DNA of 64,000 nucleotides from Brachyhypopomus gauderio (lineage: Eukaryota; Chordata; Actinopteri; Gymnotiformes; Hypopomidae), in assembly GCF_052324685.1 (NCBI RefSeq), contig NW_027507041.1:1-64000 (forward strand). The letters run 5' to 3'. Position numbers and translations under genes: made by a program. Positions 22,745 to 64,000 of this stretch are shown here, piece after piece. Positions within the stretch are counted from its first letter, which is position 1, and each line of letters begins with the position of its first letter. Below the pieces are notes generated by a model that made no database searches, had not been told where the DNA came from, and saw only the letters and a program-made list of their open reading frames with translations.

Positions 22745-22762
22745 CAATCAATCAATCAATCA

Positions 22763-27681: not shown

Positions 27682-27693
27682 AGATATTATGAT

Positions 27694-28289
27694 TTATGAT
27701 AGGAAAAACTCAAAGAATCTTGGTGACCTACAGGTTTGATTCATCTGCCTTCCTAGTTAAGTCATGCGAACCATTTGCTGCAAAATTGGCTTTAGCTACA
27801 TTGGCAATTCATTTTGTCTTCGTATTCCAGTGCATTGTACTGAACTGCAATATCCATCTTAGATCAACTGAGATTTTGCATTTCTCTCTTTCCCACATGC
27901 AAGTTCTGAATTTCTTGGCACACATTACTGCTTTGCATCTACTAAAAGCACTCCAGAGAAAGCTTCACTTCATACCTTCATGAGGTAGGTGTCGTTTGTA
28001 CTTGTATTTTGGTGGTATTTTTGTTTTTTTTTTTGTTTGTGTGCGTTGTTTGTCTACTCTTGGAACATCCTGTGATTGGTTAGGGTAGGATTAGAGTTTA
28101 ATTACGTTGGCCTCAGATTCTGGTTAATTCCAGGCTTCTTGTGCTAACCTTGTTGTTTGTTAGCTGTTGTTGGCAGTAATTAGTTGCTGCAGGTGCACTT
28201 GCCGCCATGCTCCAAGGAGTGAATTGGGGGCGGATACATTTTTTCTCCAGCTTTGTTAGTTCTTCCTCAGCCTCGCTTCTTCTTTCCTA
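27694..28289. other. Spacer of the tRNA unit (type example, unit 1)
   Basis: No gene recognised in the 596 bp before tRNA-Met. The 95-codon open frame here is kept only because the unit is duplicated; it has no domain and is broken by the 8-bp deletion in units 9 and 17. A T-run of variable length lies near 28023-28035. The other spacers (Met-Ser 583 bp, Ser-Asp 404 bp, and Asp to next unit about 167 bp) also show no gene. Confidence 0.7.
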
Positions 28290-28362
28290 GCCTCGTTAGC
28301 ACAGTAGGTAGCGCGTCAGTCTCATAATCTGAAGGTCGTGAGTTCGACCCTCACACGGGGCA
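28290..28362 (+). tRNA. tRNA-Met(CAT), elongator, unit 1 (A12 variant)
   Basis: 73 nt, full cloverleaf: acceptor GCCTCGT/ACGGGGC, anticodon loop CTCATAA, T-arm GTGAG-TTCGACC-CTCAC. The T1-loop and acceptor match vertebrate elongator Met rather than initiator. Internal box A and box B are present and a T5 terminator follows at 28371-28375. This copy has A at position 12 (GCAC for GCGC), giving an A-C mismatch in the D stem. Confidence 0.96.
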
Positions 28363-28370
28363 GCAGAAGC

Positions 28371-28375
28371 TTTTT
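28371..28375 (+). terminator. Pol III terminator of tRNA-Met (type example)
   Basis: TTTTT starting 9 nt after the tRNA. The same site is seen in every unit. Confidence 0.85.
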
Positions 28376-28945
28376 GAAAAGATTGACGAGCCCCCAAAAG
28401 ATGCTCAAACGCTCTTTCCTTATTCACTCGCATGCTGAGCACACCCCCTACCTGAAAATAGTATTGGCACATGACTCTTACAGGTCATCCCTAGTTGATT
28501 CAAGCTGTGCTTTTTCTTTTGTAAATTCGCGTGTACACAGCAAGTTGTGTTGCATCCAATTCAATTCTCTCCACTGACCGTTCAGTCAATACCTTGATGG
28601 CGTCTGTATTGACACCTCTACTGAGACATCAAGCTGCCTCTTTGGAGCATGTTCGCTCCCAGATCAAACTGCAGTGTCGTGGTGCCAACACAGAATAATG
28701 GACCACGTCGGACACTTTTCACTTTTGATTCTTTTTGATTCACTTTTGATGACACGCTTTTGAATACCTGATCACCTGGAATTGGTACCAGCTTGAAGTT
28801 AATAGTGAGTAGACTTATGGAGATTCATTTATTTGAATTTTCTTCTCAAGCCATTTGCAACTCAGAAGCAATGACACTTGTGCACTCATCATTGAGCTTG
28901 AGGAAGTCCAAGGAATTGATCTCTATGTTACTCTCGCTCCGCCGA

Positions 28946-29027
28946 GCTGCGATGGCCGAGAGGTTAAGGCGTTGGACTTGAAATCCAATGGGGTTTCCCC
29001 GCGCAGGTTCGACTCCTGCTTGCAGCG
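28946..29027 (+). tRNA. tRNA-Ser(TGA), unit 1 (G1/G13 form)
   Basis: 82 nt class II tRNA: acceptor GCTGCGA/TTGCAGC, discriminator G, anticodon loop CTTGAAA (TGA), long variable arm TGGGG-TTT-CCCC, T-arm GCAGG-TTCGACT-CCTGC. No intron. The first T4 terminator is about 57 nt downstream, after a hairpin. This is the fully paired form. Confidence 0.96.
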
Positions 29028-29048
29028 TGAGTGTCTTGTTGGGCGTGT

Positions 29049-29073
29049 GGAAAGAGAGAGTGTGCTCTCTTCC
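29049..29073 (+). other. Hairpin in the tRNA-Ser trailer (type example)
   Basis: GGAAAGAGAG and CTCTCTTCC pair around a loop of about 6 nt with one bulged A. It lies between tRNA-Ser and its first T4. Present in all units; units 10 and 18 have an A-to-G change at the loop edge. Confidence 0.5.
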
Positions 29074-29083
29074 TGCTAGCCAG

Positions 29084-29087
29084 TTTT
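29084..29087 (+). terminator. Likely Pol III terminator of tRNA-Ser (type example)
   Basis: First TTTT after tRNA-Ser, giving a trailer of about 56 nt, long for a tRNA gene. Same in all units. Confidence 0.6.
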
Positions 29088-29421
29088 AAATATGCTTCTC
29101 ATGCCATTTGCAACTTTGTGCTGCCAAACTTTAGCAGTCCTAACTGATCCTGAAATAGTCCCAGGAATTGAGTTACAAATGGCTGCTTCGTCGTTACAAT
29201 GTGTTGGCATGGAAATGCAGTGGGGTCTCTTGCAGCGTAGAGGATTAACTTGCCTCTCTAATGTGATTTGTGATGAGACCTTATGCCACCAGTGGGGAGA
29301 GCTCGCACTCACAGGTGCTTCATCCAAAGATCTTCATGCAACATAGCGATGTCTTGTTTCAGGTAAAAGAAAAAGTGCCACATTCTTTCATGGCCGGTCA
29401 CTGGTTGCTCCGCCTTGCGCT

Positions 29422-29425
29422 AAAA
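29422..29425 (-). terminator. Pol III terminator of tRNA-Asp (type example)
   Basis: TTTT on the minus strand 6 nt past the tRNA-Asp 3' end. Confidence 0.8.
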
Positions 29426-29431
29426 GAGGGT

Positions 29432-29503
29432 CTCCCCGTCGGGGAATCGAACCCCGGTCTTCCGCGTGACAGGCGGAGATACTATCCACTATACTAACGA
29501 GGA
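29432..29503 (-). tRNA. tRNA-Asp(GTC), unit 1
   Basis: 72 nt cloverleaf: acceptor TCCTCGT/ACGGGGA, anticodon loop CTGTCAC (GTC), T-arm CGGGG-TTCGATT-CCCCG, discriminator G. Transcribed against the other two tRNAs. Fully paired form. Confidence 0.97.
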
Positions 29504-30265
29504 CACGTGCTGTGTCTCGCAGTGATGCTGAGTCAGGTGACGTGCACTTGTCCCCTTGATTTTAAAGTACTCTGAATCATTGTGCCTGCAAGGAGGTGGT
29601 AAAAAGAACACATTGTGGTGATATTGACTCACTGTTGCCACTCCTCTTTTACCATCGTCAGTTTGTGGACTTATGATAGGAAAAACTCAAAGAATCTTGG
29701 TGACCTACAGGTTTGATTCATCTGCCTTCCTAGTTAAGTCATGCAAACCATTTGCTGCAAAATTGGCTTTAGCTACATTGGCAATTCATTTTGTCTTTGT
29801 ATTCCAGTGCATTGTACCGAACTGCAATATCCATCTTAGATCAACTGAGATTTTGCATTTCTCTCTTTCCCACATGCAAGTTCTGAATTTCTTGGCACAC
29901 ATTACTGCTTTGCATCTACTAAAAGCACTCCAGAGAAAGCTTCACTTCATACCTTCATGAGGTAGGTGTCGTTTGTACTTGTATTTTGGTGGTATTTTTG
30001 TTTTTTTTTTGTTTGTGTGCGTTGTTTGTCTACTCTTGGAACATCCTGTGATTGGTTAGGGTAGGATTAGAGTTTAATTACGTTGGCCTCAGATTCTGGT
30101 TAATTCCAGGCTTCTTGTGCTAACCTTGTTGTTTGTTAGCTGTTGTTGGCAGTAATTAGTTGCTGCAGGTGCACTTGCCGCCATGCTCCAAGGAGTGAAT
30201 TGGGGGCGGATACATTTTTTCTCCAGCTTTGTTAGTTCTTCCTCAGCCTCGCTTCTTCTTTCCTA

Positions 30266-30338
30266 GCCTCGTTAGCGCAGTAGGTAGCGCGTCAGTCTCA
30301 TAATCTGAAGGTCGTGAGTTCGACCCTCACACGGGGCA
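30266..30338 (+). tRNA. tRNA-Met(CAT), unit 2
   Basis: Standard form with G12 (D stem GCGC/GCGC fully paired). Confidence 0.97.
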
Positions 30339-30921
30339 GCAGAAGCTTTTTGAAAAGATTGACGAGCCCCCAAAAGATGCTCAAACGCTCTTTCCTTATT
30401 CACTCGCATGCTGAGCACACCCCCTACCTGAAAATAGTATTGGCACATGACTCTTACAGGTCATCCCTAGTTGATTCAAGCTGTGCTTTTTCTTTTGTAA
30501 ATTCGCGTGTACACAGCAAGTTGTGTTGCATCCAATTCAATTCTCTCCACTGACCGTTCAGTCAATACCTTGATGGCGTCTGTATTGACACCTCTACTGA
30601 GACATCAAGCTGCCTCTTTGGAGCATGTTCGCTCCCAGATCAAACTGCAGTGTCGTGGTGCCAACACAGAATAATGGACCACGTCGGACACTTTTCACTT
30701 TTGATTCTTTTTGATTCACTTTTGATGACACGCTTTTGAATACCTGATCACTTGGAATTGGTACCAGCTTGAAGTTAATAGTGAGTAGACTTATGGAGAT
30801 TCATTTATTTGAATTTTCTTCTCAAGCCATTTGCAACTCAGAAGCAATGACACTTGTGCACTCATCATTGAGCTTGAGGAAGTCCAAGGAATTGATCTCT
30901 ATGTTACTCTCGCTCCGCCGA

Positions 30922-31003
30922 GCTGTGATGGCCGAGAGGTTAAGGTGTTGGACTTGAAATCCAATGGGGTTTCCCCGTGCAGGTTCGACTCCTGCTTGCA
31001 GCG
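30922..31003 (+). tRNA. tRNA-Ser(TGA), unit 2 (three private changes)
   Basis: G1/G13 form with C-to-T at positions 5, 25 and 57 of the gene (all CpG-type), leaving G-U wobbles in acceptor and D stems. Still foldable. Confidence 0.92.
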
Positions 31004-31407
31004 TGAGTGTCTTGTTGGGCGTGTGGAAAGAGAGAGTGTGCTCTCTTCCTGCTAGCCAGTTTTAAATATGCTTCTCATGCCATTTGCAACTTTGTGCTGC
31101 CAAACTTTAGCAGTCCTAACTGATCCTGAAATAGTCCCAGGAATTGAGTTACAAATGGCTGCTTCGTCGTTACAATGTGTTGGCATGGAAATGCAGTGGG
31201 GTCTCTTGCAGCGTAGAGGATTAACTTGCCTCTCTAATGTGATTTGTGATGAGACCTTATGCCACCAGTGGGGAGAGCTCGCACTCACAGGTGCTTCATC
31301 CAAAGATCTTCATGCAACATAGTGATGTCTTGTTTCAGGTAAAAGAAAAAGTGCCACATTCTTTCATGGCCGGTCACTGGTTGCTCCGCCTTGCGCTAAA
31401 AGAGGGT

Positions 31408-31479
31408 CTCCCCGTCGGGGAATCGAACCCCGGTCTTCCGCGTGACAGGCGGAGATACTATCCACTATACTAACGAGGA
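31408..31479 (-). tRNA. tRNA-Asp(GTC), unit 2
   Basis: Standard form. Confidence 0.97.
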
Positions 31480-32242
31480 CACGTGCTGTGTCTCGCAGTG
31501 ATGCTGAGTCAGGTGACGTGCACTTGTCCCCTTGATTTTAAAGTACTCTGAATCATTGTGCCTGCAAGGAGGTGGTAAAAAGAACACATTGTGGTGATAT
31601 TGACTCACTGTTGCCACTCCTCTTTTACCATCGTCAGTTTGTGGACTTATGATAGGAAAAACTCAAAGAATCTTGGTGACCTACAAGTTTGATTCATCTG
31701 CCTTCCTAGTTAAGTCATGCAAACCATTTGCTGCAAAATTGGCTTTAGCTACATTGGCAATTCATTTTGTCTTCGTATTCCAGTGCATTGTACCGAACTG
31801 CAATATCCATCTTAGATCAACTGAGATTTTGCATTTCTCTCTTTCCCACATGCAAGTTCTGAATTTCTTGGCACACATTACTGCTTTGCATCTACTAAAA
31901 GCACTCCAGAGAAAGCTTCACTTCATACCTTCATGAGGTAGGTGTCGTTTGTACTTGTATTTTGGTGGTATTTTTGTTTTTTTTTTTGTTTGTGTGCGTT
32001 GTTTGTCTACTCTTGGAACATCCTGTGATTGGTTAGGGTAGGATTAGAGTTTAATTACGTTGGCCTCAGATTCTGGTTAATTCCAGGCTTCTTGTGCTAA
32101 CCTTGTTGTTTGTTAGCTGTTGTTGGCAGTAATTAGTTGCTGCAGGTGCACTTGCCGCCATGCTCCAAGGAGTGAATTGGGGGCGGATACATTTTTTCTC
32201 CAGCTTTGTTAGTTCTTCCTCAGCCTCGCTTCTTCTTTCCTA

Positions 32243-32315
32243 GCCTCGTTAGCACAGTAGGTAGCGCGTCAGTCTCATAATCTGAAGGTCGTGAGTTCGA
32301 CCCTCACACGGGGCA
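32243..32315 (+). tRNA. tRNA-Met(CAT), unit 3 (A12 variant)
   Basis: A12 gives the D-stem mismatch, as in units 1 and 6. Confidence 0.95.
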
Positions 32316-32898
32316 GCAGAAGCTTTTTGAAAAGATTGACGAGCCCCCAAAAGATGCTCAAACGCTCTTTCCTTATTCACTCGCATGCTGAGCACACCCC
32401 CTACCTGAAAATAGTATTGGCACATGACTCTTACAGGTCATCCCTAGTTGATTCAAGCTGTGCTTTTTCTTTTGTAAATTCGCGTGTACACAGCAAGTTG
32501 TGTTGCATCCAATTCAATTCTCTCCACTGACCGTTCAGTCAATACCTTGATGGCGTCTGTATTGACACCTCTACTGAGACATCAAGCTGCCTCTTTGGAG
32601 CATGTTCGCTCCCAGATCAAATTGCAGTGTCGTGGTGCCAACACAGAATAATGGACCACGTCGGACACTTTTCACTTTTGATTCTTTTTGATTCACTTTT
32701 GATGACACGCTTTTGAATACCTGATCACCTGGAATTGGTACCAGCTTGAAGTTAATAGTGAGTAGACTTATGGAGATTCATTTATTTGAATTTTCTACTC
32801 AAGCCATTTGCAACTCAGAAGCAATGACACTTGTGCACTCATCATTGAGCTTGAGGAAGTCCAAGGAATTGATCTCTATGTTACTCTCGCTCCTCCGA

Positions 32899-32980
32899 AC
32901 TGCGATGGCCTAGAGGTTAAGGCGTTGGACTTGAAATCCAATGGGGTTTCCCCGCGCAGGTTCGACTCCTGCTTGCAGCG
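32899..32980 (+). tRNA. tRNA-Ser(TGA), unit 3 (A1/T13 form)
   Basis: First base A instead of G leaves an A-C mismatch at the acceptor end, and position 13 is T instead of G. Box A and box B still fit the consensus. Confidence 0.9.
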
Positions 32981-33384
32981 TGAGTGTCTTGTTGGGCGTG
33001 TGGAAAGAGAGAGTGTGCTCTCTTCCTGCTAGCCAGTTTTAAATATGCTTCTCATGCCGTTTGCAACTTTGTGCTGCCAAACTTTAGCAGTCCTAACTGA
33101 TCCTGAAATAGTCCCAGGAATTGAGTTACAAATGGCTGCTTTGTCGTTACAATGTGTTGGCATGGAAATGCAGTGGGGTCTCTTGCAGCGTAGAGGATTA
33201 ACTTGCCTCTCTAATGTGATTTGTGATGAGACCTTATGCCACCAGTGGGGAGAGCTTGCACTCACAGGTGCTTCATCCAAAGATCTTCATGCAACATAGC
33301 GATGTCTTGTTTCAGGTAAAAGAAAAAGTGCCACATTCTTTCATGGCTGGTCACTGGTTGCTCCGCCTTGCGCTAAAAGAGGGT

Positions 33385-33456
33385 CTCCCCGTCTGGGAAT
33401 CGAACCCCGGTCTTCCGCGTGACAGGCAGAGATACTATCCACTATACTAACGAGGA
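33385..33456 (-). tRNA. tRNA-Asp(GTC), unit 3 (T-stem mismatch)
   Basis: CCCAG instead of CCCCG in the T stem (A-G mismatch), plus a change in the anticodon stem leaving a G-U pair. Likely weakened. Confidence 0.9.
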
Positions 33457-34216
33457 CACGTGCTGTGTCTTGCAGTGATGCTGAGTCAGGTGACGTGCAC
33501 TTGTCCCCTTGATTTTAAAGTACTCTGAATCATTGTGCCTGCAAGGAGGTGGTAAAAAGAACACATTGTGGTGATATTGACTCACTGTTGCCATTCCTCT
33601 TTTACCATCGTCAGTTTGTGGACTTATGATAGGAAAAACTCAAAGAATCTTGGTGACCTACAGGTTTGATTCATCTGCCTTCCTAGTTAAGTCATGCAAA
33701 CCATTTGCTGCAAAATTGGCTTTAGCTACATTGGCAATTCATTTTGTCTTTGTATTCCAGTGCATTGTACCGAACTGCAATATCCATCTTAGATCAACTG
33801 AGATTTTGCATTTCTCTCTTTCCCACATGCAAGTTCTGAATTTCTTGGCACACATTACTGCTTTGCATCTACTAAAAGCACTCCAGAGAAAGCTTCACTT
33901 CATACCTTCATGAGGTAGCTGTCGTTTGTACTTGTATTTTGGTGGTATTTTTGTTTTTTTTGTTTGTGTGCGTTGTTTGTCTACTCTTGGAACATCCTGT
34001 GATTGGTTAGGGTAGGATTAGAGTTTAATTACGTTGGCCTCAGATTCTGGTTAATTCCAGGCTTCTTGTGCTAAGCTTGTTGTTTGTTAGCTGTTGTTGG
34101 CAGTAATTAGTTGCTGCAGGTGCACTTGCCGCCATGCTCCAAGGAGTGAATTGGGGGCGGATACATTTTTTCTCCAGCTTTGTTAGTTCTTCCTCAGCCT
34201 CGCTTCTTCTTTCCTA

Positions 34217-34289
34217 GCCTCGTTAGCGCAGTAGGTAGCGCGTCAGTCTCATAATCTGAAGGTCGTGAGTTCGACCCTCACACGGGGCA
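34217..34289 (+). tRNA. tRNA-Met(CAT), unit 4
   Basis: Standard G12 form. Confidence 0.97.
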
Positions 34290-34872
34290 GCAGAAGCTTT
34301 TTGAAAAGATTGACGAGCCCCCAAAAGATGCTCAAACGCTCTTTCCTTATTCACTCGCATGCTGAGCACACCCCCTACCTAAAAATAGTATTGGCACATG
34401 ACTCTTACAGGTCATCCCTAGTTGATTCAAGCTGTGCTTTTTCTTTTGTAAATTCGCGTGTACACAGCAAGTTGTGTTGCATCCAATTCAATTCTCTCCA
34501 CTGACCGTTCAGTCAATACCTTGATGGCGTCTGTATTGACACCTCTACTGAGACATCAAGCTGCCTCTTTGGAGCATGTTCGCTCCCAGATCAAACTGCA
34601 GTGTCGTGGTGCCAACACAGAATAATGGACCACGTCGGACACTTTTCACTTTTGATTCTTTTTGATTCACTTTTGATGACACGCTTTTGAATACCTGATC
34701 ACCTGGAATTGGTACCAGCTTGAAGTTAATAGTGAGTAGACTTATGGAGATTCATTTATTTGAATTTTCTTCTCAAGCCATTTGCAACTCAGAAGCAATG
34801 ACACTTGTGCACTCATCATTGAGCTTGAGGAAGTCCAAGGAATTGATCTCTATGTTACTCTCGCTCCGCCGA

Positions 34873-34954
34873 GCTGCGATGGCCGAGAGGTTAAGGCGTT
34901 GGACTTGAAATCCAATGGGGTTTCCCCGCGCAGGTTCGACTCCTGCTTGCAGCG
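34873..34954 (+). tRNA. tRNA-Ser(TGA), unit 4 (G1/G13 form)
   Basis: Identical to unit 1. Confidence 0.96.
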
Positions 34955-35358
34955 TGAGTGTCTTGTTGGGCGTGTGGAAAGAGAGAGTGTGCTCTCTTCC
35001 TGCTAGCCAGTTTTAAATATGCTTCTCATGCCATTTGCAACTTTGTGCTGCCAAACTTTAGCAGTCCTAACTGATCCTGAAATAGTCCCAGGAATTGAGT
35101 TACAAATGGCTGCTTCGTCGTTACAATGTGTTGGCATGGAAATGCAGTGGGGTCTCTTGCAGCTTAGAGGATTAACTTGCCTCTCTAATGTGATTTGTGA
35201 TGAGACCTTATGCCACCAGTGGGGAGAGCTTGCACTCACAGGTGCTTCATCCAAAGATCTTCATGCAACATAGTGATGTCTTGTTTCAGGTAAAAGAAAA
35301 AGTGCCACATTCTTTCATGGCCGGTCACTGGTTGCTCCGCCTTGCGCTAAAAGAGGGT

Positions 35359-35430
35359 CTCCCCGTCGGGGAATCGAACCCCGGTCTTCCGCGTGACAGG
35401 CGGAGATACTATCCACTATACTAACGAGGA
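35359..35430 (-). tRNA. tRNA-Asp(GTC), unit 4
   Basis: Standard form. Confidence 0.97.
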
Positions 35431-36192
35431 CACGTGCTGTGTCTCGCAGTGATGCTGAGTCAGGTGACGTGCACTTGTCCCCTTGATTTTAAAGTACTCT
35501 GAATCATTGTGCCTGCAAGGAGGTGGTAAAAAGAACACATTGTGGTGATATTGACTCACTGTTGCCACTCCTCTTTTACCATCGTCAGTTTGTGGACTTA
35601 TGATAGGAAAAACTCAAAGAATCTTGGTGACCTACAGGTTTGATTCATCTGCCTTCCTAGTTAAGTCATGCAAACCATTTGCTGCAAAATTGGCTTTAGC
35701 TACATTGGCAATTCATTTTGTCTTTGTATTCCAGTGCATTGTACCGAACTGCAATATCCATCTTAGATCAACTGAGATTTTGCATTTCTCTCTTTCCCAC
35801 ATGCAAGTTCTGAATTTCTTGGCACACATTACTGCTTTGCATCTACTAAAAGCACTCCAGAGAAAGCTTCACTTCATACCTTCATGAGGTAGGTGTCGTT
35901 TGTACTTGTATTTTGGTGGTATTTTTGTTTTTTTTTTGTTTGTGTGCGTTGTTTGTCTACTCTTGGAACATCCTGTGATTGGTTAGGGTAGGATTAGAGT
36001 TTAATTACGTTGGCCTCAGATTCTGGTTAATTCCAGGCTTCTTGTGCTAACCTTGTTGTTTGTTAGCTGTTGTTGGCAGTAATTAGTTGCTGCAGGTGCA
36101 CTTGCCGCCATGCTCCAAGGAGTGAATTGGGGGCGGATACATTTTTTCTCCAGCTTTGTTAGTTCTTCCTCAGCCTCGCTTCTTCTTTCCTA

Positions 36193-36265
36193 GCCTCGTT
36201 AGCGCAGTAGGTAGCGCGTCAGTCTCATAATCTGAAGGTCGTGAGTTCGACCCTCACACGGGGCA
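36193..36265 (+). tRNA. tRNA-Met(CAT), unit 5
   Basis: Standard G12 form. Confidence 0.97.
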
Positions 36266-36848
36266 GCAGAAGCTTTTTGAAAAGATTGACGAGCCCCCAA
36301 AAGATGCTCAAACGCTCTTTCCTTATTCACTCGCATGCTGAGCACACCCCCTACCTGAAAATAGTATTGGCACATGACTCTTACAGGTCATCCCTAGTTG
36401 ATTCAAGCTGTGCTTTTTCTTTTGTAAATTCGCGTGTACACAGCAAGTTGTGTTGCATCCAATTCAATTCTCTCCACTGACCGTTCAGTCAATACCTTGA
36501 TGGCGTCTGTATTGACACCTCTACTGAGACATCAAGCTGCCTCTTTGGAGCATGTTCGCTCCCAGATCAAACTGCAGTGTCGTGGTGCCAACACAGAATA
36601 ATGGACCACGTCGGACACTTTTCACTTTTGATTCTTTTTGATTCACTTTTGATGACACGCTTTTGAATACCTGATCACTTGGAATTGGTACCAGCTTGAA
36701 GTTAATAGTGAGTAGACTTATGGAGATTCATTTATTTGAATTTTCTTCTCAAGCCATTTGCAACTCAGAAGCAATGACACTTGTGCACTCATCATTGAGC
36801 TTGAGGAAGTCCAAGGAATTGATCTCTATGTTACTCTCGCTCCGCCGA

Positions 36849-36930
36849 GCTGTGATGGCCGAGAGGTTAAGGCGTTGGACTTGAAATCCAATGGGGTTTC
36901 CCCGCGCAGGTTCGACTCCTGCTTGCAGCG
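36849..36930 (+). tRNA. tRNA-Ser(TGA), unit 5 (T5 change)
   Basis: G1/G13 form with T at position 5, shared with unit 2; supports a 3-unit duplication. Confidence 0.94.
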
Positions 36931-37334
36931 TGAGTGTCTTGTTGGGCGTGTGGAAAGAGAGAGTGTGCTCTCTTCCTGCTAGCCAGTTTTAAATATGCTT
37001 CTCATGCCATTTGCAACTTTGTGCTGCCAAACTTTAGCAGTCCTAACTGATCCTGAAATAGTCCCAGGAATTGAGTTACAAATGGCTGCTTCGTCGTTAC
37101 AATGTGTTGGCATGGAAATGCAGTGGGGTCTCTTGCAGCGTAGAGGATTAACTTGCCTCTCTAATGTGATTTGTGATGAGACCTTATGCCACCAGTGGGG
37201 AGAGCTCGCACTCACAGGTGCTTCATCCAAAGATCTTCATGCAACATAGTGATGTCTTGTTTCAGGTAAAAGAAAAAGTGCCACATTCTTTCATGGCCGG
37301 TCACTGGTTGCTCCGCCTTGCGCTAAAAGAGGGT

Positions 37335-37406
37335 CTCCCCGTCGGGGAATCGAACCCCGGTCTTCCGCGTGACAGGCGGAGATACTATCCACTATACTAA
37401 CGAGGA
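37335..37406 (-). tRNA. tRNA-Asp(GTC), unit 5
   Basis: Standard form. Confidence 0.97.
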
Positions 37407-38169
37407 CACGTGCTGTGTCTCGCAGTGATGCTGAGTCAGGTGACGTGCACTTGTCCCCTTGATTTTAAAGTACTCTGAATCATTGTGCCTGCAAGGAGGT
37501 GGTAAAAAGAACACATTGTGGTGATATTGACTCACTGTTGCCACTCCTCTTTTACCATCGTCAGTTTGTGGACTTATGATAGGAAAAACTCAAAGAATCT
37601 TGGTGACCTACAAGTTTGATTCATCTGCCTTCCTAGTTAAGTCATGCAAACCATTTGCTGCAAAATTGGCTTTAGCTACATTGGCAATTCATTTTGTCTT
37701 CGTATTCCAGTGCATTGTACCGAACTGCAATATCCATCTTAGATCAACTGAGATTTTGCATTTCTCTCTTTCCCACATGCAAGTTCTGAATTTCTTGGCA
37801 CACATTACTGCTTTGCATCTACTAAAAGCACTCCAGAGAAAGCTTCACTTCATACCTTCATGAGGTAGGTGTCGTTTGTACTTGTATTTTGGTGGTATTT
37901 TTGTTTTTTTTTTTGTTTGTGTGCGTTGTTTGTCTACTCTTGGAACATCCTGTGATTGGTTAGGGTAGGATTAGAGTTTAATTACGTTGGCCTCAGATTC
38001 TGGTTAATTCCAGGCTTCTTGTGCTAACCTTGTTGTTTGTTAGCTGTTGTTGGCAGTAATTAGTTGCTGCAGGTGCACTTGCCGCCATGCTCCAAGGAGT
38101 GAATTGGGGGCGGATACATTTTTTCTCCAGCTTTGTTAGTTCTTCCTCAGCCTCGCTTCTTCTTTCCTA

Positions 38170-53215: not shown

Positions 53216-53978
53216 CACGTGCTGTGTCTTGCAGTGATGCTGAGTCAGGTGACGTGCACTTGTCCCCTTGATTTTAAAGTACTCTGAATCATTGTGCCTG
53301 CAAGGAGGTGGTAAAAAGAACACATTGTGGTGATATTGACTCACTGTTGCCATTCCTCTTTTACCATCGTCAGTTTGTGGACTTATGATAGGAAAAACTC
53401 AAAGAATCTTGGTGACCTACAGGTTTGATTCATCTGCCTTCCTAGTTAAGTCATGCAAACCATTTGCTGCAAAATTGGCTTTAGCTACATTGGCAATTCA
53501 TTTTGTCTTTGTATTCCAGTGCATTGTACCGAACTGCAATATCCATCTTAGATCAACTGAGATTTTGCATTTCTCTCTTTCCCACATGCAAGTTCTGAAT
53601 TTCTTGGCACACATTACTGCTTTGCATCTACTAAAAGCACTCCAGAGAAAGCTTCACTTCATACCTTCATGAGGTAGGTGTCGTTTGTACTTGTATTTTG
53701 GTGGTATTTTTGTTTTTTTTTTTGTTTGTGTGCGTTGTTTGTCTACTCTTGGAACATCCTGTGATTGGTTAGGGTAGGATTAGAGTTTAATTACGTTGGC
53801 CTCAGATTCTGGTTAATTCCAGGCTTCTTGTGCTAACCTTGTTGTTTGTTAGCTGTTGTTGGCAGTAATTAGTTGCTGCAGGTGCACTTGCCGCCATGCT
53901 CCAAGGAGTGAATTGGGGGCGGATACATTTTTTCTCCAGCTTTGTTAGTTCTTCCTCAGCCTCGCTTCTTCTTTCCTA

Positions 53979-54051
53979 GCCTCGTTAGCGCAGTAGGTAG
54001 CGCGTCAGTCTCATAATCTGAAGGTCGTGAGTTCGACCCTCACACGGGGCA
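53979..54051 (+). tRNA. tRNA-Met(CAT), unit 14
   Basis: Standard G12 form. Confidence 0.97.
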
Positions 54052-54634
54052 GCAAAAGCTTTTTGAAAAGATTGACGAGCCCCCAAAAGATGCTCAAACG
54101 CTCTTTCCTTATTCACTCGCATGCTGAGCACACCCCCTACCTGAAAATAGTATTGGCACATGACTCTTACAGGTCATCCCTAGTTGATTCAAGCTGTGCT
54201 TTTTCTTTTGTAAATTCGCGTGTACACAGCAAGTTGTGTTGCATCCAATTCAATTCTCTCCACTGACCGTTCAGTCAATACCTTGATGGCGTCTGTATTG
54301 ACACCTCTACTGAGACATCAAGCTGCCTCTTTGGAGCATGTTCGCTCCCAGATCAAATTGCAGTGTCGTGGTGCCAACACAGAATAATGGACCACGTCGG
54401 ACACTTTTCACTTTTGATTCTTTTTGATTCACTTTTGATGACACGCTTTTGAATACCTGATCACCTGGAATTGGTACCAGCTTGAAGTTAATAGTGAGTA
54501 GACTTATGGAGATTCATTTATTTGAATTTTCTACTCAAGCCATTTGCAACTCAGAAGCAATGACACTTGTGCACTCATCATTGAGCTTGAGGAAGTCCAA
54601 GGAATTGATCTCTATGTTACTCTCGCTCCTCCGA

Positions 54635-54716
54635 ACTGCGATGGCCTAGAGGTTAAGGCGTTGGACTTGAAATCCAATGGGGTTTCCCCGCGCAGGTTCG
54701 ACTCCTGCTTGCAGCG
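54635..54716 (+). tRNA. tRNA-Ser(TGA), unit 14 (A1/T13 form)
   Basis: A1/T13 form. Confidence 0.9.
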
Positions 54717-55120
54717 TGAGTGTCTTGTTGGGAGTGTGGAAAGAGAGAGTGTGCTCTCTTCCTGCTAGCCAGTTTTAAATATGCTTCTCATGCCATTTGC
54801 AACTTTGTGCTGCCAAACTTTAGCAGTCCTAACTGATCCTGAAATAGTCCCAGGAATTGAGTTACAAATGGCTGCTTTGTCGTTACAATGTGTTGGCATG
54901 GAAATGCAGTGGGGTCTCTTGCAGCGTAGAGGATTAACTTGCCTCTCTAATGTGATTTGTGATGAGACCTTATGCCACCAGTGGGGAGAGCTTGCACTCA
55001 CAGGTGCTTCATCCAAAGATCTTCATGCAACATAGCGATGTCTTGTTTCAGGTAAAAGAAAAAGTGCCACATTCTTTCATGGCTGGTCACTGGTTGCTCC
55101 GCCTTGCGCTAAAAGAGGGT

Positions 55121-55192
55121 CTCCCCGTCGGGGAATCGAACCCCGGTCTTCCGCGTGACAGGCGGAGATACTATCCACTATACTAACGAGGA
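55121..55192 (-). tRNA. tRNA-Asp(GTC), unit 14
   Basis: Standard form. Confidence 0.97.
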
Positions 55193-55955
55193 CACGTGCT
55201 GTGTCTTGCAGTGATGCTGAGTCAGGTGACGTGCACTTGTCCCCTTGATTTTAAAGTACTCTGAATCATTGTGCCTGCAAGGAGGTGGTAAAAAGAACAC
55301 ATTGTGGTGATATTGACTCACTGTTGCCATTCCTCTTTTACCATCGTCAGTTTGTGGACTTATGATAGGAAAAACTCAAAGAATCTTGGTGACCTACAGG
55401 TTTGATTCATCTGCCTTCCTAGTTAAGTCATGCAAACCATTTGCTGCAAAATTGGCTTTAGCTACATTGGCAATTCATTTTGTCTTTGTATTCCAGTGCA
55501 TTGTACCGAACTGCAATATCCATCTTAGATCAACTGAGATTTTGCATTTCTCTCTTTCCCACATGCAAGTTCTGAATTTCTTGGCACACATTACTGCTTT
55601 GCATCTACTAAAAGCACTCCAGAGAAAGCTTCACTTCATACCTTCATGAGGTAGGTGTCGTTTGTACTTGTATTTTGGTGGTATTTTTGTTTTTTTTTTT
55701 GTTTGTGTGCGTTGTTTGTCTACTCTTGGAACATCCTGTGATTGGTTAGGGTAGGATTAGAGTTTAATTACGTTGGCCTCAGATTCTGGTTAATTCCAGG
55801 CTTCTTGTGCTAACCTTGTTGTTTGTTAGCTGTTGTTGGCAGTAATTAGTTGCTGCAGGTGCACTTGCCGCCATGCTCCAAGGAGTGAATTGGGGGCGGA
55901 TACATTTTTTCTCCAGCTTTGTTAGTTCTTCCTCAGCCTCGCTTCTTCTTTCCTA

Positions 55956-56028
55956 GCCTCGTTAGCGCAGTAGGTAGCGCGTCAGTCTCATAATCTGAAG
56001 GTCGTGAGTTCGACCCTCACACGGGGCA
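55956..56028 (+). tRNA. tRNA-Met(CAT), unit 15
   Basis: Standard G12 form. Confidence 0.97.
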
Positions 56029-56611
56029 GCAAAAGCTTTTTGAAAAGATTGACGAGCCCCCAAAAGATGCTCAAACGCTCTTTCCTTATTCACTCGCATG
56101 CTGAGCACACCCCCTACCTGAAAATAGTATTGGCACATGACTCTTACAGGTCATCCCTAGTTGATTCAAGCTGTGCTTTTTCTTTTGTAAATTCGCGTGT
56201 ACACAGCAAGTTGTGTTGCATCCAATTCAATTCTCTCCACTGACCGTTCAGTCAATACCTTGATGGCGTCTGTATTGACACCTCTACTGAGACATCAAGC
56301 TGCCTCTTTGGAGCATGTTCGCTCCCAGATCAAATTGCAGTGTCGTGGTGCCAACACAGAATAATGGACCACGTCGGACACTTTTCACTTTTGATTCTTT
56401 TTGATTCACTTTTGATGACACGCTTTTGAATACCTGATCACCTGGAATTGGTACCAGCTTGAAGTTAATAGTGAGTAGACTTATGGAGATTCATTTATTT
56501 GAATTTTCTACTCAAGCCATTTGCAACTCAGAAGCAATGACACTTGTGCACTCATCATTGAGCTTGAGGAAGTCCAAGGAATTGATCTCTATGTTACTCT
56601 CGCTCCTCCGA

Positions 56612-56693
56612 ACTGCGATGGCCTAGAGGTTAAGGCGTTGGACTTGAAATCCAATGGGGTTTCCCCGCGCAGGTTCGACTCCTGCTTGCAGCG
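56612..56693 (+). tRNA. tRNA-Ser(TGA), unit 15 (A1/T13 form)
   Basis: A1/T13 form. Confidence 0.9.
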
Positions 56694-57097
56694 TGAGTGT
56701 CTTGTTGGGAGTGTGGAAAGAGAGAGTGTGCTCTCTTCCTGCTAGCCAGTTTTAAATATGCTTCTCATGCCATTTGCAACTTTGTGCTGCCAAACTTTAG
56801 CAGTCCTAACTGATCCTGAAATAGTCCCAGGAATTGAGTTACAAATGGCTGCTTCGTCGTTACAATGTGTTGGCATGGAAATGCAGTGGGGTCTCTTGCA
56901 GCGTAGAGGATTAACTTGCCTCTCTAATGTGATTTGTGATGAGACCTTATGCCACCAGTGGGGAGAGCTTGCACTCACAGGTGCTTCATCCAAAGATCTT
57001 CATGCAACATAGCGATGTCTTGTTTCAGGTAAAAGAAAAAGTGCCACATTCTTTCATGGCTGGTCACTGGTTGCTCCGCCTTGCGCTAAATGAGGGT

Positions 57098-57169
57098 CTC
57101 CCCGTCTGGGAATCGAACCCCGGTCTTCCGCGTGACAGGCGGAGATACTATCCACTATACTAACGAGGA
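57098..57169 (-). tRNA. tRNA-Asp(GTC), unit 15 (T-stem mismatch)
   Basis: CCCAG variant. A change just past the 3' end (AAAT for AAAA on +) leaves only a T3 run on the minus strand at the terminator site. Confidence 0.9.
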
Positions 57170-57931
57170 CACGTGCTGTGTCTTGCAGTGATGCTGAGTC
57201 AGGTGACGTGCACTTGTCCCCTTGATTTTAAAGTACTCTGAATCATTGTGCCTGCAAGGAGGTGGTAAAAAGAACACATTGTGGTGATATTGACTCACTG
57301 TTGCCATTCCTCTTTTACCATCGTCAGTTTGTGGACTTATGATAGGAAAAACTCAAAGAATCTTGGTGACCTACAGGTTTGATTCATCTGCCTTCCTAGT
57401 TAAGTCATGCAAACCATTTGCTGCAAAATTGGCTTTAGCTACATTGGCAATTCATTTTGTCTTTGTATTCCAGTGCATTGTACCGAACTGCAATATCCAT
57501 CTTAGATCAACTGAGATTTTGCATTTCTCTCTTTCCCACATGCAAGTTCTGAATTTCTTGGCACACATTACTGCTTTGCATCTACTAAAAGCACTCCAGA
57601 GAAAGCTTCACTTCATACCTTCATGAGGTAGGTGTCGTTTGTACTTGTATTTTGGTGGTATTTTTGTTTTTTTTTTGTTTGTGTGCGTTGTTTGTCTACT
57701 CTTGGAACATCCTGTGATTGGTTAGGGTAGGATTAGAGTTTAATTACGTTGGCCTCAGATTCTGGTTAATTCCAGGCTTCTTGTGCTAACCTTGTTGTTT
57801 GTTAGCTGTTGTTGGCAGTAATTAGTTGCTGCAGGTGCACTTGCCGCCATGCTCCAAGGAGTGAATTGGGGGCGGATACATTTTTTCTCCAGCTTTGTTA
57901 GTTCTTCCTCAGCCTCGCTTCTTCTTTCCTA

Positions 57932-58004
57932 GCCTCGTTAGCGCAGTAGGTAGCGCGTCAGTCTCATAATCTGAAGGTCGTGAGTTCGACCCTCACACGG
58001 GGCA
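57932..58004 (+). tRNA. tRNA-Met(CAT), unit 16
   Basis: Standard G12 form. Confidence 0.97.
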
Positions 58005-58588
58005 GCAGAAGCTTTTTGAAAAGATTGACGAGCCCCCAAAAGATGCTCAAACGCTCTTTCCTTATTCACTCGCATGCTGAGCACACCCCCTACCCTGAAA
58101 ATAGTATTGGCACATGACTCTTACAGGTCATCCCTAGTTGATTCAAGCTGTGCTTTTTCTTTTGTAAATTCGCGTGTACACAGCAAGTTGTGTTGCATCC
58201 AATTCAATTCTCTCCACTGACCGTTCAGTCAATACCTTGATGGCGTCTGTATTGACACCTCTACTGAGACATCAAGCTGCCTCTTTGGAGCATGTTTGCT
58301 CCCAGATCAAACTGCAGTGTCGTGGTGCCAACACAGAATAATGGACCACGTCGGACACTTTTCACTTTTGATTCTTTTTGATTCACTTTTGATGACACGC
58401 TTTTGAATACCTGATCACCTGGAATTGGTACCAGCTTGAAGTTAATAGTGAGTAGACTTATGGAGATTCATTTATTTGAATTTTCTTCTCAAGCCATTTG
58501 CAACTCAGAAGCAATGACACTTGTGCACTCATCATTGAGCTTGAGGAAGTCCAAGGAATTGATCTCTATGTTACTCTCGCTCCGCCGA

Positions 58589-58670
58589 GCTGCGATGGCC
58601 GAGAGGTTAAGGCGTTGGACTTGAAATCCAATGGGGTTTCCCCGCGCAGGTTCGACTCCTGCTTGCAGCG
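58589..58670 (+). tRNA. tRNA-Ser(TGA), unit 16 (G1/G13 form)
   Basis: Fully paired form. Confidence 0.96.
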
Positions 58671-59074
58671 TGAGTGTCTTGTTGGGCGTGTGGAAAGAGA
58701 GAGTGTGCTCTCTTCCTGCTAGCCAGTTTTAAATATGCTTCTCATGCCATTTGCAACTTTGTGCTGCCAAACTTTAGCAGTCCTAACTGATCCTGAAATA
58801 GTCCCAGGAATTGAGTTACAAATGGCTGCTTTGTCGTTACAATGTGTTGGCATGGAAATGCAGTGGGGTCTCTTGCAGCGTAGAGGATTAACTTGCCTCT
58901 CTAATGTGATTTGTGATGAGACCTTATGCCACCAGTGGGGAGAGCTTGCACTCACAGGTGCTTCATCCAAAGATCTTCATGCAACATAGCGATGTCTTGT
59001 TTCAGGTAAAAGAAAAAGTGCCACATTCTTTCATGGCTGGTCACTGGTTGCTCCGCCTTGCGCTAAAAGAGGGT

Positions 59075-59146
59075 CTCCCCGTCGGGGAATCGAACCCCGG
59101 TCTTCCGCGTGACAGGCGGAGATACTATCCACTATACTAACGAGGA
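59075..59146 (-). tRNA. tRNA-Asp(GTC), unit 16
   Basis: Standard form. Confidence 0.97.
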
Positions 59147-59901
59147 CACGTGCTGTGTCTCGCAGTGATGCTGAGTCAGGTGACGTGCACTTGTCCCCTT
59201 GATTTTAAAGTACTCTGAATCATTGTGCCTGCAAGGAGGTGGTAAAAAGAACACATTGTGGTGATATTGACTCACTGTTGCCACTCCTCTTTTACCATCG
59301 TCAGTTTGTGGACTTATGATAGGAAAAACTCAAAGAATCTTGGTGACCTACAAGTTTGATTCATCTGCCTTCCTAGTTAAAACCATTTGCTGCAAAATTG
59401 GCTTTAGCTACATTGGCAATTCATTTTGTCTTCGTATTCCAGTGCATTGTAGCGAACTGCAATATCCATCTTAGATCAACTGAGATTTTGCATTTCTCTC
59501 TTTCCCACATGCAAGTTCTGAATTTCTTGGCACACATTACTGCTTTGCATCTACTAAAAGCACTCCAGAGAAAGCTTCACTTCATACCTTCATGAGGTAG
59601 GTGTCGTTTGTACTTGTATTTTGGTGGTATTTTTGTTTTTTTTTTTGTTTGTGTGCGTTGTTTGTCTACTCTTGGAACATCCTGTGATTGGTTAGGGTAG
59701 GATTAGAGTTTAATTACGTTGGCCTCAGATTCTGGTTAATTCCAGGCTTCTTGTGCTAACCTTGTTGTTTGTTAGCTGTTGTTGGCAGTAATTAGTTGCT
59801 GCAGGTGCACTTGCCGCCATGCTCCAAGGAGTGAATTGGGGGCGGATACATTTTTTCTCCAGCTTTGTTAGTTCTTCCTCAGCCTCGCTTCTTCTTTCCT
59901 A

Positions 59902-59974
59902 GCCTCGTTAGCGCAGTAGGTAGCGCGTCAGTCTCATAATCTGAAGGTCGTGAGTTCGACCCTCACACGGGGCA
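59902..59974 (+). tRNA. tRNA-Met(CAT), unit 17
   Basis: Standard G12 form; counterpart of unit 9. Confidence 0.97.
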
Positions 59975-60557
59975 GCAGAAGCTTTTTGAAAAGATTGACG
60001 AGCCCCCAAAAGATGCTCAAACGCTCTTTCCTTATTCACTCGCATGCTGAGCACACCCCCTACCTGAAAATAGTATTGGCACATGACTCTTACAGGTCAT
60101 CCCTAGTTGATTCAAGCTGTGCTTTTTCTTTTGTAAATTCGCGTGTACACAGCAAGTTGTGTTGCATCCAATTCAATTCTCTCCACTGACCGTTCAGTCA
60201 ATACCTTGATGGCGTCTGTATTGACACCTCTACTGAGACATCAAGCTGCCTCTTTGGAGCATGTTCGCTCCCAGATCAAATTGCAGTGTCGTGGTGCCAA
60301 CACAGAATAATGGACCACGTCGGACACTTTTCACTTTTGATTCTTTTTGATTCACTTTTGATGACACGCTTTTGAATACCTGATCACCTGGAATTGGTAC
60401 CAGCTTGAAGTTAATAGTGAGTAGACTTATGGAGATTCATTTATTTGAATTTTCTACTCAAGCCATTTGCAACTCAGAAGCAATGACACTTGTGCACTCA
60501 TCATTGAGCTTGAGGAAGTCCAAGGAATTGATCTCTATGTTACTCTCGCTCCTCCGA

Positions 60558-60639
60558 ACTGCGATGGCCTAGAGGTTAAGGCGTTGGACTTGAAATCCAA
60601 TGGGGTTTCCCCGCGCAGGTTCGACTCCTGCTTGCAGCG
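60558..60639 (+). tRNA. tRNA-Ser(TGA), unit 17 (A1/T13 form)
   Basis: A1/T13 form; counterpart of unit 9. Confidence 0.9.
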
Positions 60640-61043
60640 TGAGTGTCTTGTTGGGAGTGTGGAAAGAGAGAGTGTGCTCTCTTCCTGCTAGCCAGTTTTA
60701 AATATGCTTCTCATGCCATTTGCAACTTTGTGCTGCCAAACTTTAGCAGTCCTAACTGATCCTGAAATAGTCCCAGGAATTGAGTTACAAATGGCTGCTT
60801 TGTCGTTACAATGTGTTGGCATGGAAATGCAGTGGGGTCTCTTGCAGCGTAGAGGATTAACTTGCCTCTCTAATGTGATTTGTGATGAGACCTTATGCCA
60901 CCAGTGGGGAGAGCTTGCACTCACAGGTGCTTCATCCAAAGATCTTCATGCAACATAGCGATGTCTTGTTTCAGGTAAAAGAAAAAGTGCCACATTCTTT
61001 CATGGCTGGTCACTGGTTGCTCCGCCTTGCGCTAAAAGAGGGT

Positions 61044-61115
61044 CTCCCCGTCTGGGAATCGCACCCCGGTCTTCCGCGTGACAGGCGGAGATACTATCCA
61101 CTATACTAACGAGGA
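61044..61115 (-). tRNA. tRNA-Asp(GTC), unit 17, probably non-functional
   Basis: Carries both lesions of unit 9 (CCCAG and G55), so the damaged gene was copied by the 15.8-kb duplication. Confidence 0.85.
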
Positions 61116-61878
61116 CACGTGCTGTGTCTTGCAGTGATGCTGAGTCAGGTGACGTGCACTTGTCCCCTTGATTTTAAAGTACTCTGAATCATTGTGCCTG
61201 CAAGGAGGTGGTAAAAAGAACACATTGTGGTGATATTGACTCACTGTTGCCATTCCTCTTTTACCATCGTCAGTTTGTGGACTTATGATAGGAAAAACTC
61301 AAAGAATCTTGGTGACCTACAGGTTTGATTCATCTGCCTTCCTAGTTAAGTCATGCAAACCATTTGCTGCAAAATTGGCTTTAGCTACATTGGCAATTCA
61401 TTTTGTCTTTGTATTCCAGTGCATTGTACCGAACTGCAATATCCATCTTAGATCAACTGAGATTTTGCATTTCTCTCTTTCCCACATGCAAGTTCTGAAT
61501 TTCTTGGCACACATTACTGCTTTGCATCTACTAAAAGCACTCCAGAGAAAGCTTCACTTCATACCTTCATGAGGTAGGTGTCGTTTGTACTTGTATTTTG
61601 GTGGTATTTTTGTTTTTTTTTTTGTTTGTGTGCGTTGTTTGTCTACTCTTGGAACATCCTGTGATTGGTTAGGGTAGGATTAGAGTTTAATTACGTTGGC
61701 CTCAGATTCTGGTTAATTCCAGGCTTCTTGTGCTAACCTTGTTGTTTGTTAGCTGTTGTTGGCAGTAATTAGTTGCTGCAGGTGCACTTGCCGCCATGCT
61801 CCAAGGAGTGAATTGGGGGCGGATACATTTTTTCTCCAGCTTTGTTAGTTCTTCCTCAGCCTCGCTTCTTCTTTCCTA

Positions 61879-61951
61879 GCCTCGTTAGCGCAGTAGGTAG
61901 CGCGTCAGTCTCATAATCTGAAGGTCGTGAGTTCGACCCTCACACGGGGCA
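61879..61951 (+). tRNA. tRNA-Met(CAT), unit 18
   Basis: Standard G12 form; counterpart of unit 10. Confidence 0.97.
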
Positions 61952-62535
61952 GCAAAAGCTTTTTGAAAAGATTGACGAGCCCCCAAAAGATGCTCAAACG
62001 CTCTTTCCTTATTCACTCGCATGCTGAGCACACCCCCTACCCTGAAAATAGTATTGGCACATGACTCTTACAGGTCATCCCTAGTTGATTCAAGCTGTGC
62101 TTTTTCTTTTGTAAATTCGCGTGTACACAGCAAGTTGTGTTGCATCCAATTCAATTCTCTCCACTGACCGTTCAGTCAATACCTTGATGGCGTCTGTATT
62201 GACACCTCTACTGAGACATCAAGCTGCCTCTTTGGAGCATGTTCGCTCCCAGATCAAATTGCAGTGTCGTGGTGCCAACACAGAATAATGGACCACGTCG
62301 GACACTTTTCACTTTTGATTCTTTTTGATTCACTTTTGATGACACGCTTTTGAATACCTGATCACCTGGAATTGGTACCAGCTTGAAGTTAATAGTGAGT
62401 AGACTTATGGAGATTCATTTATTTGAATTTTCTACTCAAGCCATTTGCAACTCAGAAGCAATGACACTTGTGCACTCATCATTGAGCTTGAGGAAGTCCA
62501 AGGAATTGATCTCTATGTTACTCTCGCTCCTCCGA

Positions 62536-62617
62536 ACTGCGATGGCCTAGAGGTTAAGGCGTTGGACTTGAAATCCAATGGGGTTTCCCCGCGCAGGTTC
62601 GACTCCTGCTTGCAGCG
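62536..62617 (+). tRNA. tRNA-Ser(TGA), unit 18 (A1/T13 form)
   Basis: A1/T13 form with the unit-10 trailer change. Confidence 0.9.
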
Positions 62618-63021
62618 TGAGTGTCTTGTTGGGAGTGTGGAAAGAGAGGGTGTGCTCTCTTCCTGCTAGCCAGTTTTAAATATGCTTCTCATGCCATTTG
62701 CAACTTTGTGCTGCCAAACTTTAGCAGTCCTAACTGATCCTGAAATAGTCCCAGGAATTGAGTTACAAATGGCTGCTTTGTCGTTACAATGTGTTGGCAT
62801 GGAAATGCAGTGGGGTCTCTTGCAGCGTAGAGGATTAACTTGCCTCTCTAATGTGATTTGTGATGAGACCTTATGCCACCAGTGGGGAGAGCTTGCACTC
62901 ACAGGTGCTTCATCCAAAGATCTTCATGCAACATAGCGATGTCTTGTTTCAGGTAAAAGAAAAAGTGCCACATTCTTTCATGGCTGGTCACTGGTTGCTC
63001 CGCCTTGCGCTAAAAGAGGGT

Positions 63022-63093
63022 CTCCCCGTCGGGGAATCGAACCCCGGTCTTCCGCGTGACAGGCGGAGATACTATCCACTATACTAACGAGGA
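63022..63093 (-). tRNA. tRNA-Asp(GTC), unit 18
   Basis: Standard form. Confidence 0.97.
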
Positions 63094-63856
63094 CACGTGC
63101 TGTGTCTTGCAGTGATGCTGAGTCAGGTGACGTGCACTTGTCCCCTTGATTTTAAAGTACTCTGAATCATTGTGCCTGCAAGGAGGTGGTAAAAAGAACA
63201 CATTGTGGTGATATTGACTCACTGTTGCCATTCCTCTTTTACCATCGTCAGTTTGTGGACTTATGATAGGAAAAACTCAAAGAATCTTGGTGACCTACAG
63301 GTTTGATTCATCTGCCTTCCTAGTTAAGTCATGCAAACCATTTGCTGCAAAATTGGCTTTAGCTACATTGGCAATTCATTTTGTCTTTGTATTCCAGTGC
63401 ATTGTACCGAACTGCAATATCCATCTTAGATCAACTGAGATTTTGCATTTCTCTCTTTCCCACATGCAAGTTCTGAATTTCTTGGCACACATTACTGCTT
63501 TGCATCTACTAAAAGCACTCCAGAGAAAGCTTCACTTCATACCTTCATGAGGTAGGTGTCGTTTGTACTTGTATTTTGGTGGTATTTTTGTTTTTTTTTT
63601 TGTTTGTGTGCGTTGTTTGTCTACTCTTGGAACATCCTGTGATTGGTTAGGGTAGGATTAGAGTTTAATTACGTTGGCCTCAGATTCTGGTTAATTCCAG
63701 GCTTCTTGTGCTAACCTTGTTGTTTGTTAGCTGTTGTTGGCAGTAATTAGTTGCTGCAGGTGCACTTGCCGCCATGCTCCAAGGAGTGAATTGGGGGCGG
63801 ATACATTTTTTCTCCAGCTTTGTTAGTTCTTCCTCAGCCTCGCTTCTTCTTTCCTA

Positions 63857-63929
63857 GCCTCGTTAGCGCAGTAGGTAGCGCGTCAGTCTCATAATCTGAA
63901 GGTCGTGAGTTCGACCCTCACACGGGGCA
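63857..63929 (+). tRNA. tRNA-Met(CAT), unit 19 (unit cut by window end)
   Basis: Standard G12 form; complete, although its unit continues past 64000. Confidence 0.97.
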
Positions 63930-64000
63930 GCAAAAGCTTTTTGAAAAGATTGACGAGCCCCCAAAAGATGCTCAAACGCTCTTTCCTTATTCACTCGCAT

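Follow-up and report, generated by a model that had tools for sequence, protein, structure and literature searches.

The first 64,000 bases of contig NW_027507041.1 of the Brachyhypopomus gauderio assembly (hereafter the window; the contig, designated C197, is 201,116 bases long) contain a tandem array of transfer RNA (tRNA) genes. Genes were called with ARAGORN and with the Rfam model RF00005 at its gathering threshold of 29 bits. Both methods called 55 of 55 tRNA genes between 28,290 and 63,929, with Rfam scores of 46.8 to 66.8 bits. They comprise 19 Met(CAT) and 18 Ser(TGA) genes on the forward strand and 18 Asp(GTC) genes on the reverse strand, which amounts to 18 complete units and the Met gene of a 19th. 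A preliminary description of this DNA had proposed 55 tRNA genes in a Met-Ser-Asp layout, two forward and one reverse, at fixed spacing over 18 units, and this was borne out; a tRNA scan rejecting most copies had been named there as a possible refutation, and ARAGORN and Rfam accepted every one. Its start for the array, 27,694, was nearly right, as the array begins two bases further on. Within the window the array occupies 27,696-64,000 on the forward strand, with 18 complete units of ~1,977 bp (the first at 27,696-29,672, the last at 61,285-63,262) and the start of the 19th, and it runs on to 117,852.

In the first unit the Met gene lies at 28,290-28,362 (+), the Ser gene at 28,946-29,027 (+) and the Asp gene at 29,432-29,503 (-). 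The 18 other Met genes of the window start at 30266, 32243, 34217, 36193, 38170, 40146, 42123, 44092, 46069, 48047, 50024, 52001, 53979, 55956, 57932, 59902, 61879 and 63857. The 17 other Ser genes start at 30922, 32899, 34873, 36849, 38826, 40803, 42779, 44748, 46726, 48703, 50680, 52658, 54635, 56612, 58589, 60558 and 62536, and the 17 other Asp genes at 31408, 33385, 35359, 37335, 39312, 41289, 43265, 45234, 47212, 49189, 51166, 53144, 55121, 57098, 59075, 61044 and 63022. Judged by the T-arm, we take the Met genes of the array to be of the elongator type. Met-to-Met spacing is 1,969-1,978 bp, and the start-to-start distances within a unit are 656-657 bp from Met to Ser and 486 bp from Ser to Asp, the latter in 18 of 18 units. 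The Ser and Asp genes are convergent and 402 bp apart in the unit consensus; Asp and the Met gene that follows are divergent and 765 bp apart.

For comparison between units we aligned 90 complete units, 45 from C197 and 45 from bases 100,001-200,000 of a second array-bearing contig, C134; incomplete units, and those on C134 beyond this stretch, did not enter the alignment. In all 90 units the Met gene is followed at 8 nt by TTTTT; in the consensus, TTTT lies 4 nt beyond the Asp gene, a run that is broken in one unit. The unit had been described as a three-gene unit, and three genes are indeed called, to which the consensus adds a relic of a fourth, a second Ser gene located between Ser and Asp. 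About 48 bp of the relic are recognisable, corresponding in the first unit to 29,193-29,240 (+), a position transferred from the consensus. It is preceded by a diverged version of the flank found upstream of Ser, and flank and gene together score 92, against 55 for the best of 1,000 dinucleotide shuffles. The gene part alone scores 34, which a single shuffle in 1,000 also attains, and Rfam did not report the relic in the first unit even at E=10. The case for a second Ser gene therefore rests on flank and gene jointly.

As the preliminary description had anticipated, the array extends past the window. On C197, which was read up to base 164,000, it spans 27,696-117,852 and holds 45 complete units and part of another (45.6 in total). 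Beyond the window ARAGORN called 80 more genes, bringing the count to 135, and the spacing implies one more Ser gene that was split between two analysed pieces. The 17 other complete units of the window are 98.4-99.9% identical to the second unit, which argues that the array is not a product of chance; the same range holds for the complete units of C197, any two of which differ at a median of 14 positions. This is a real, very high-copy, homogenised tandem array of tRNA-gene DNA (tDNA), with variants in both length and sequence.

The extent of the array in the genome was assessed with k-mers searched on both strands of the assembly (796.5 Mb, 840 contigs). Contig places for the unit-spacer 30-mer and for the Met, Ser and Asp 31-mers refer to the matches listed, and absence from a contig was drawn only from the complete match lists, those of the left junction, the right junction, the GTT form and the Ser variant described below. 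With up to two mismatches, the spacer 30-mer has 371 copies, 370 on one strand and 1 on the other, which among the matches listed lie on C134 and on a third contig, C3. The Met 31-mer has 400 copies with up to one mismatch. Assuming one Met gene per 30-mer unit, ~93% (371/400) of such Met genes lie in units, and more if short units are counted; one Met copy, C14:6,129,338, is on a contig without a unit among the matches listed. The Ser and Asp 31-mers have 617 and 629 copies, respectively.

On C134 the array spans 73,915-252,683, or ~87.6 units if it is continuous in the unread parts; both ends were read as longer pieces with 1.5-kb samples in between, and every sample was array. The stretch 100,001-200,000 of C134 is array apart from two insertions, at 100,876-105,426 and 155,605-156,639. 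Both are flanked by TTAA, presumably as left by piggyBac-type elements, and the first splits a Ser gene. A further contig, C151, carries the left junction and array-type Ser genes. On C3 (41,981,624 bases) the first Met copy among the matches listed is at 41.665 Mb, and the contig ends inside the array: unit sequence, including an exact Met 31-mer, fills its final 600 bases. A shorter unit of ~1,660 bp was seen interleaved with full units at 41.76-41.85 Mb of C3; the spacings imply that 316 bp were lost between Asp and Met, and the 30-mer is seemingly absent from this form.

Related genes also occur in other settings. Relative to Met, the genome totals are higher by 217 copies for Ser and by 229 for Asp. 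Contig C57 carries 12 Ser-type 31-mers at 1,128,542-1,158,353 among the matches listed, and of their 11 spacings two are 662 bp, four are 1,324 bp and five are not multiples of 662. Three patterns designed to read the C57 unit gave no match. C57 may hold a second array, and a Ser-Asp array without Met may exist. A small Asp cluster at 12,089,814-12,100,196 of C9 (among the matches listed) differs from the array, in that its genes lie on both strands and are irregularly spaced.

Among the 90 complete units, 67 are distinct, and identical units sit several units apart in blocks, such as those beginning at 79,078, 86,989, 94,897 and 100,828 of C197. Because identical units recur in spaced blocks while so many others are distinct, we attribute the pattern to unequal exchange and block duplication rather than to assembler stutter. 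The commonest gene form is present in 65 of the 90 units for Met and in 55 each for Ser and Asp; in the window, 15 of 19 Met genes have the commonest sequence. A Ser variant that joins G1>A to G13>T, the former breaking the first acceptor pair (A1.C72 mismatch), is found in 10 of 18 window units and in 29 of 90 overall. A 30-mer for this variant has 52 exact copies in the genome, of which 20 are on C134, 11 on C151, 21 on C197 and none on C3. An Asp T-stem mismatch occurs in 7 of 18 window genes, 2 of which also have a changed T-loop/B-box base. Alone or with other changes it is present in 26 of the 90 units, 2 of these with the T-loop change inside the RNA polymerase III (pol III) B box. A changed base does not imply a dead gene, since all 55 window genes score above the Rfam threshold.

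The Met-Ser-Asp trio had been called fixed, which holds for the window; elsewhere in the array, 12 genes with an Asp body carry the Asn anticodon GTT. They are located at 199840, 209726, 211705, 213682, 245319 and 251250 of C134 and at 80832, 88743, 90720, 96651, 102582 and 104559 of C197; the genome-wide match list for the GTT form comprises these 12, and 6 of the 90 aligned units contain one. They are candidate alloacceptors, the tRNA body of one family bearing the anticodon of another. All six C197 copies carry C36>T, C40>T and G68>A, and the six on C134 carry C36>T and C40>T within the matched stretch. The C36>T and C40>T changes common to the copies suggest that the GTT form probably arose in one event and was then copied.

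Variation among the 90 units was compared between genes and spacer, with p values serving as guides only, as sites within linked blocks are not independent. Sites in genes vary more often than sites in spacer (23/227 versus 62/1,750, p=6.6e-5), and when the gene mask was rotated round the unit, 23 varying sites were reached at 27 of 1,977 positions. No single stratum of sites differs significantly between genes and spacer, neither CpG sites (16/44 versus 21/74, p=0.41) nor non-CpG G/C sites (6/89 versus 29/684, p=0.28) nor A/T sites (1/94 versus 12/992, p=1.0). The higher raw variability of the genes is thus accounted for by their CpG content. Faster, transcription-linked mutation of the genes was considered and dropped, as genes and spacer do not differ within any CpG stratum. 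In the pooled data, 37 of 118 CpG sites are variable, compared with 35 of the 773 remaining G/C sites (p=1.7e-16), and the ratio of observed to expected CpG is 0.42 in the spacer, 0.98-1.32 in the genes and 0.56 for the whole unit. Decay of CpG sites to this degree points to methylation of the array in the germ line, probably with little selection on single copies. Variants above 10% frequency make up 3 of 23 in genes and 21 of 62 in spacer (p=0.064), a weak hint of selection, but by a rank test variant frequencies are no different in the two (p=0.85; medians 0.033 and 0.022).

The left array junction was placed at 27,632-27,711, and a 36-mer across 27,676-27,711 has three genomic copies, on C134, C151 and C197. 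The left flank is common to C197 and C134, with 99.93% identity over 7,072 bp of which ~5.1 kb is flank; the C151 sequence is 99.7% identical over 3,036 columns, about half of them flank. C134 and C197 also have the right array end in common, beyond which the flanks differ: 11.8 kb of C134 right flank and three 1.5-kb samples gave no match to 46 kb of C197 right flank, partly masked. C134 and C197 may be two alleles, one flank of which has been rearranged, or duplicated loci, and the existence of three left ends suggests more than one simple allele pair.

Adjoining the array, and outside the unit, is a retrotransposon of the long interspersed nuclear element (LINE) type at 22,745-27,631 (-), end points approximate. 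It has a 1,019-aa endonuclease/reverse-transcriptase frame (26,495-23,436; Pfam matches RVT_1 and Exo_endo_phos) and a 322-aa frame (27,464-26,496) matching a GDSL esterase. The same LINE stands at the same place beside the C134 array. Window bases 1-22,745 consist of a tandem repeat of ~7,181 bp, in three full copies and a partial fourth, with DDE_Tnp_4 transposase and YqaJ recombinase-like frames; these frames were seen in three repeat copies, and Pfam was run on the first. The repeat is also found to the left of the C134 array, at ~99.6% identity.

We give about even chances to the reading that the array is a tDNA satellite like those of zebrafish and Xenopus, that it turns over by unequal exchange and is methylated in the germ line, and that any use it has is mainly in oocytes. 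Its 1,977-bp unit, in which Met and Ser share a strand and Asp converges on them from the other, is present in at least ~371 copies in the assembly. Unequal exchange and block duplication would alter the length of the array and spread variants through it, as suggested by the repeated blocks, the shared variants and the identical array ends of C134 and C197 at ~87.6 and 45.6 units. To judge by the CpG decay, the array would spend much of its time in the germ line CpG-methylated, so that single copies decay while turnover preserves the common sequence. Should the array have a function, the likeliest is to supply eggs with tRNA, as a set of pol III genes of the oocyte type that is shut off in most somatic cells, by analogy with the repeat-encoded tRNAs of zebrafish. 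The close T-run terminators of the Met and Asp genes support such a satellite. Three observations weigh against it. In none of the 90 units does a TTTT follow the Ser gene closer than 40 nt, the first lying at 56 nt in 89 units and at 40 nt in one. Units with the commonest form of all three genes number only 4 of 18 in the window, 8 of 45 on C197 and 19 of 45 on C134. Finally, the CpG decay is equally compatible with a satellite that is wholly dead.

An inert satellite of that sort, in which unequal exchange acts alone, the tRNA genes are silenced and decaying passengers, and scattered genes do the work, is a close rival and possible, if somewhat improbable. It agrees with the likeness of genes and spacer, both in variation after correction for CpG and in variant frequencies by the rank test, and with the many changed gene copies. 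The distant terminator of the Ser gene and the two TTAA-flanked insertions in the C134 array, one of them inside a Ser gene, also speak for it. It is harder to reconcile with the commonest forms of all three genes, which score as full tRNAs, and with variants above 10% being somewhat rarer in genes than in spacer. With ~93% of this Met type gathered in units, it is also unlikely that all are dead unless other Met types exist, for which no search was made.

The preliminary description had raised the possibility that gene dose matters for translation. The proposal that all cells owe a higher level of the three tRNAs to several hundred active copies has the copy number and the intact common forms in its favour, but as stated it is not supported and we regard it as unlikely: many copies are changed, the CpG pattern points to germ-line methylation, and tRNA level is reported not to reflect copy number in zebrafish embryos (PMC11574265).

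We judge it quite unlikely that the array is a pol III-dense boundary, the second idea of the preliminary description, at which TFIIIC and pol III on three genes per 2 kb would separate chromatin domains. The array does hold one tRNA gene per ~660 bp across 90 kb, and a human tRNA tandem repeat at 1q23.3 with CTCF sites is described as a proposed boundary (PMC4041453). However, no CTCF-like site was found in the window within one mismatch of a consensus, which is a weak test, and a barrier need not use CTCF. At two mismatches there are 44 sites against 16.0 expected and a largest value of 25 in 100 shuffles. Of these, 37 lie in the array at two per unit, 19 within Met genes and 18 between Ser and Asp, and the excess is explained by repetition. 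On this weak test, CTCF sites were dropped as a candidate component of the unit. The array is also not GC-rich (44.4-44.8%) and its unit is CpG-poor, unlike the human repeat. That one or a few units were expanded by the assembler, which had been put forward as what would refute the array, is scarcely credible given the diversity of the units, the second unit length on C3, the two insertions within the C134 array and the same left junction on three contigs, even though C3 ends inside the array.

Tandem units of several tRNA genes with oocyte-type use are known from the 3.18-kb tDNA repeat of Xenopus laevis, which has more genes per unit and other specificities. The clusters on zebrafish chromosomes 4, 8 and 3 are described as very high-copy, of mixed specificity and in repeat-rich DNA (PMC11574265, PMC11417395), as is the present array; CpG methylation was measured there and is deduced from CpG decay here, and the present unit differs in its Met-Ser-Asp content with one gene on the opposite strand. 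According to PMC11574265, tRNA genes in large zebrafish clusters are near-completely CpG-methylated in embryos. PMC11417395 reports that egg isodecoders come from repetitive regions and later-rising ones from scattered genes, with Asp-GTC among the switching families. The clustered share of tRNA genes and pseudogenes is given as 65% in zebrafish and 87% in stickleback (PMC2888827). The protist Entamoeba histolytica also has arrays that are tandem repeats of tRNA genes (PMC2888827).

The human and mouse 1q23.3 tRNA variable number tandem repeat is likewise a tandem multi-tRNA unit. Its copy number varies between 9 and 43, to which the ~87.6 and 45.6 units of C134 and C197 would be a parallel if these are alleles. 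Its unit is reported as 7.3 kb, GC-rich, CpG-rich and bound by CTCF (PMC4041453), whereas the present unit is 2 kb, ~44.5% GC and CpG-poor, with no near CTCF match. The Ser-Tyr-Tyr (SYY) cluster of Arabidopsis resembles the array in being a tandem cluster of tRNA genes, with zones of sound copies and zones of decayed ones, and differs in being from a plant, in its specificities, in its reactivation in root cap cells and in its fewer copies, with 54 clustered Tyr genes (PMC12308677). SYY shows that methylation of a tandem tRNA cluster is compatible with its use in a particular tissue (PMC12308677). A literature search, judged by titles and abstract openings in part of the matching literature, found no Met-Ser-Asp array. 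Striking as it is, the array belongs to a recognisable type already known from zebrafish and other species and is not a new kind of system. Particular to this genome are the Met-Ser-Asp combination, the concentration of most such Met genes in the array and the spreading of the Asp-bodied GTT form.

The GTT form raises the further prospect, which we hold to be doubtful, that the array is a site where tRNA identity changes and spreads. Unequal exchange would have carried the form to its 12 copies on two contigs, and if these are transcribed in oocytes and charged with Asn, an Asp-to-Asn identity shift would have been caught while spreading in a satellite. If still charged with Asp, the GTT form would place Asp at Asn codons in eggs. 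In eukaryotes, 30 anticodon shifts between amino-acid families are reported as known (PMC3923123). As an unusually clean large tDNA array, it presents common, damaged and anticodon-shifted units side by side, with copies distinguishable by sequence. Sequencing of egg and body tRNA would directly reveal which copies are used, and the array is a case in point for why the number of tRNA genes may be a poor guide to tRNA dose.

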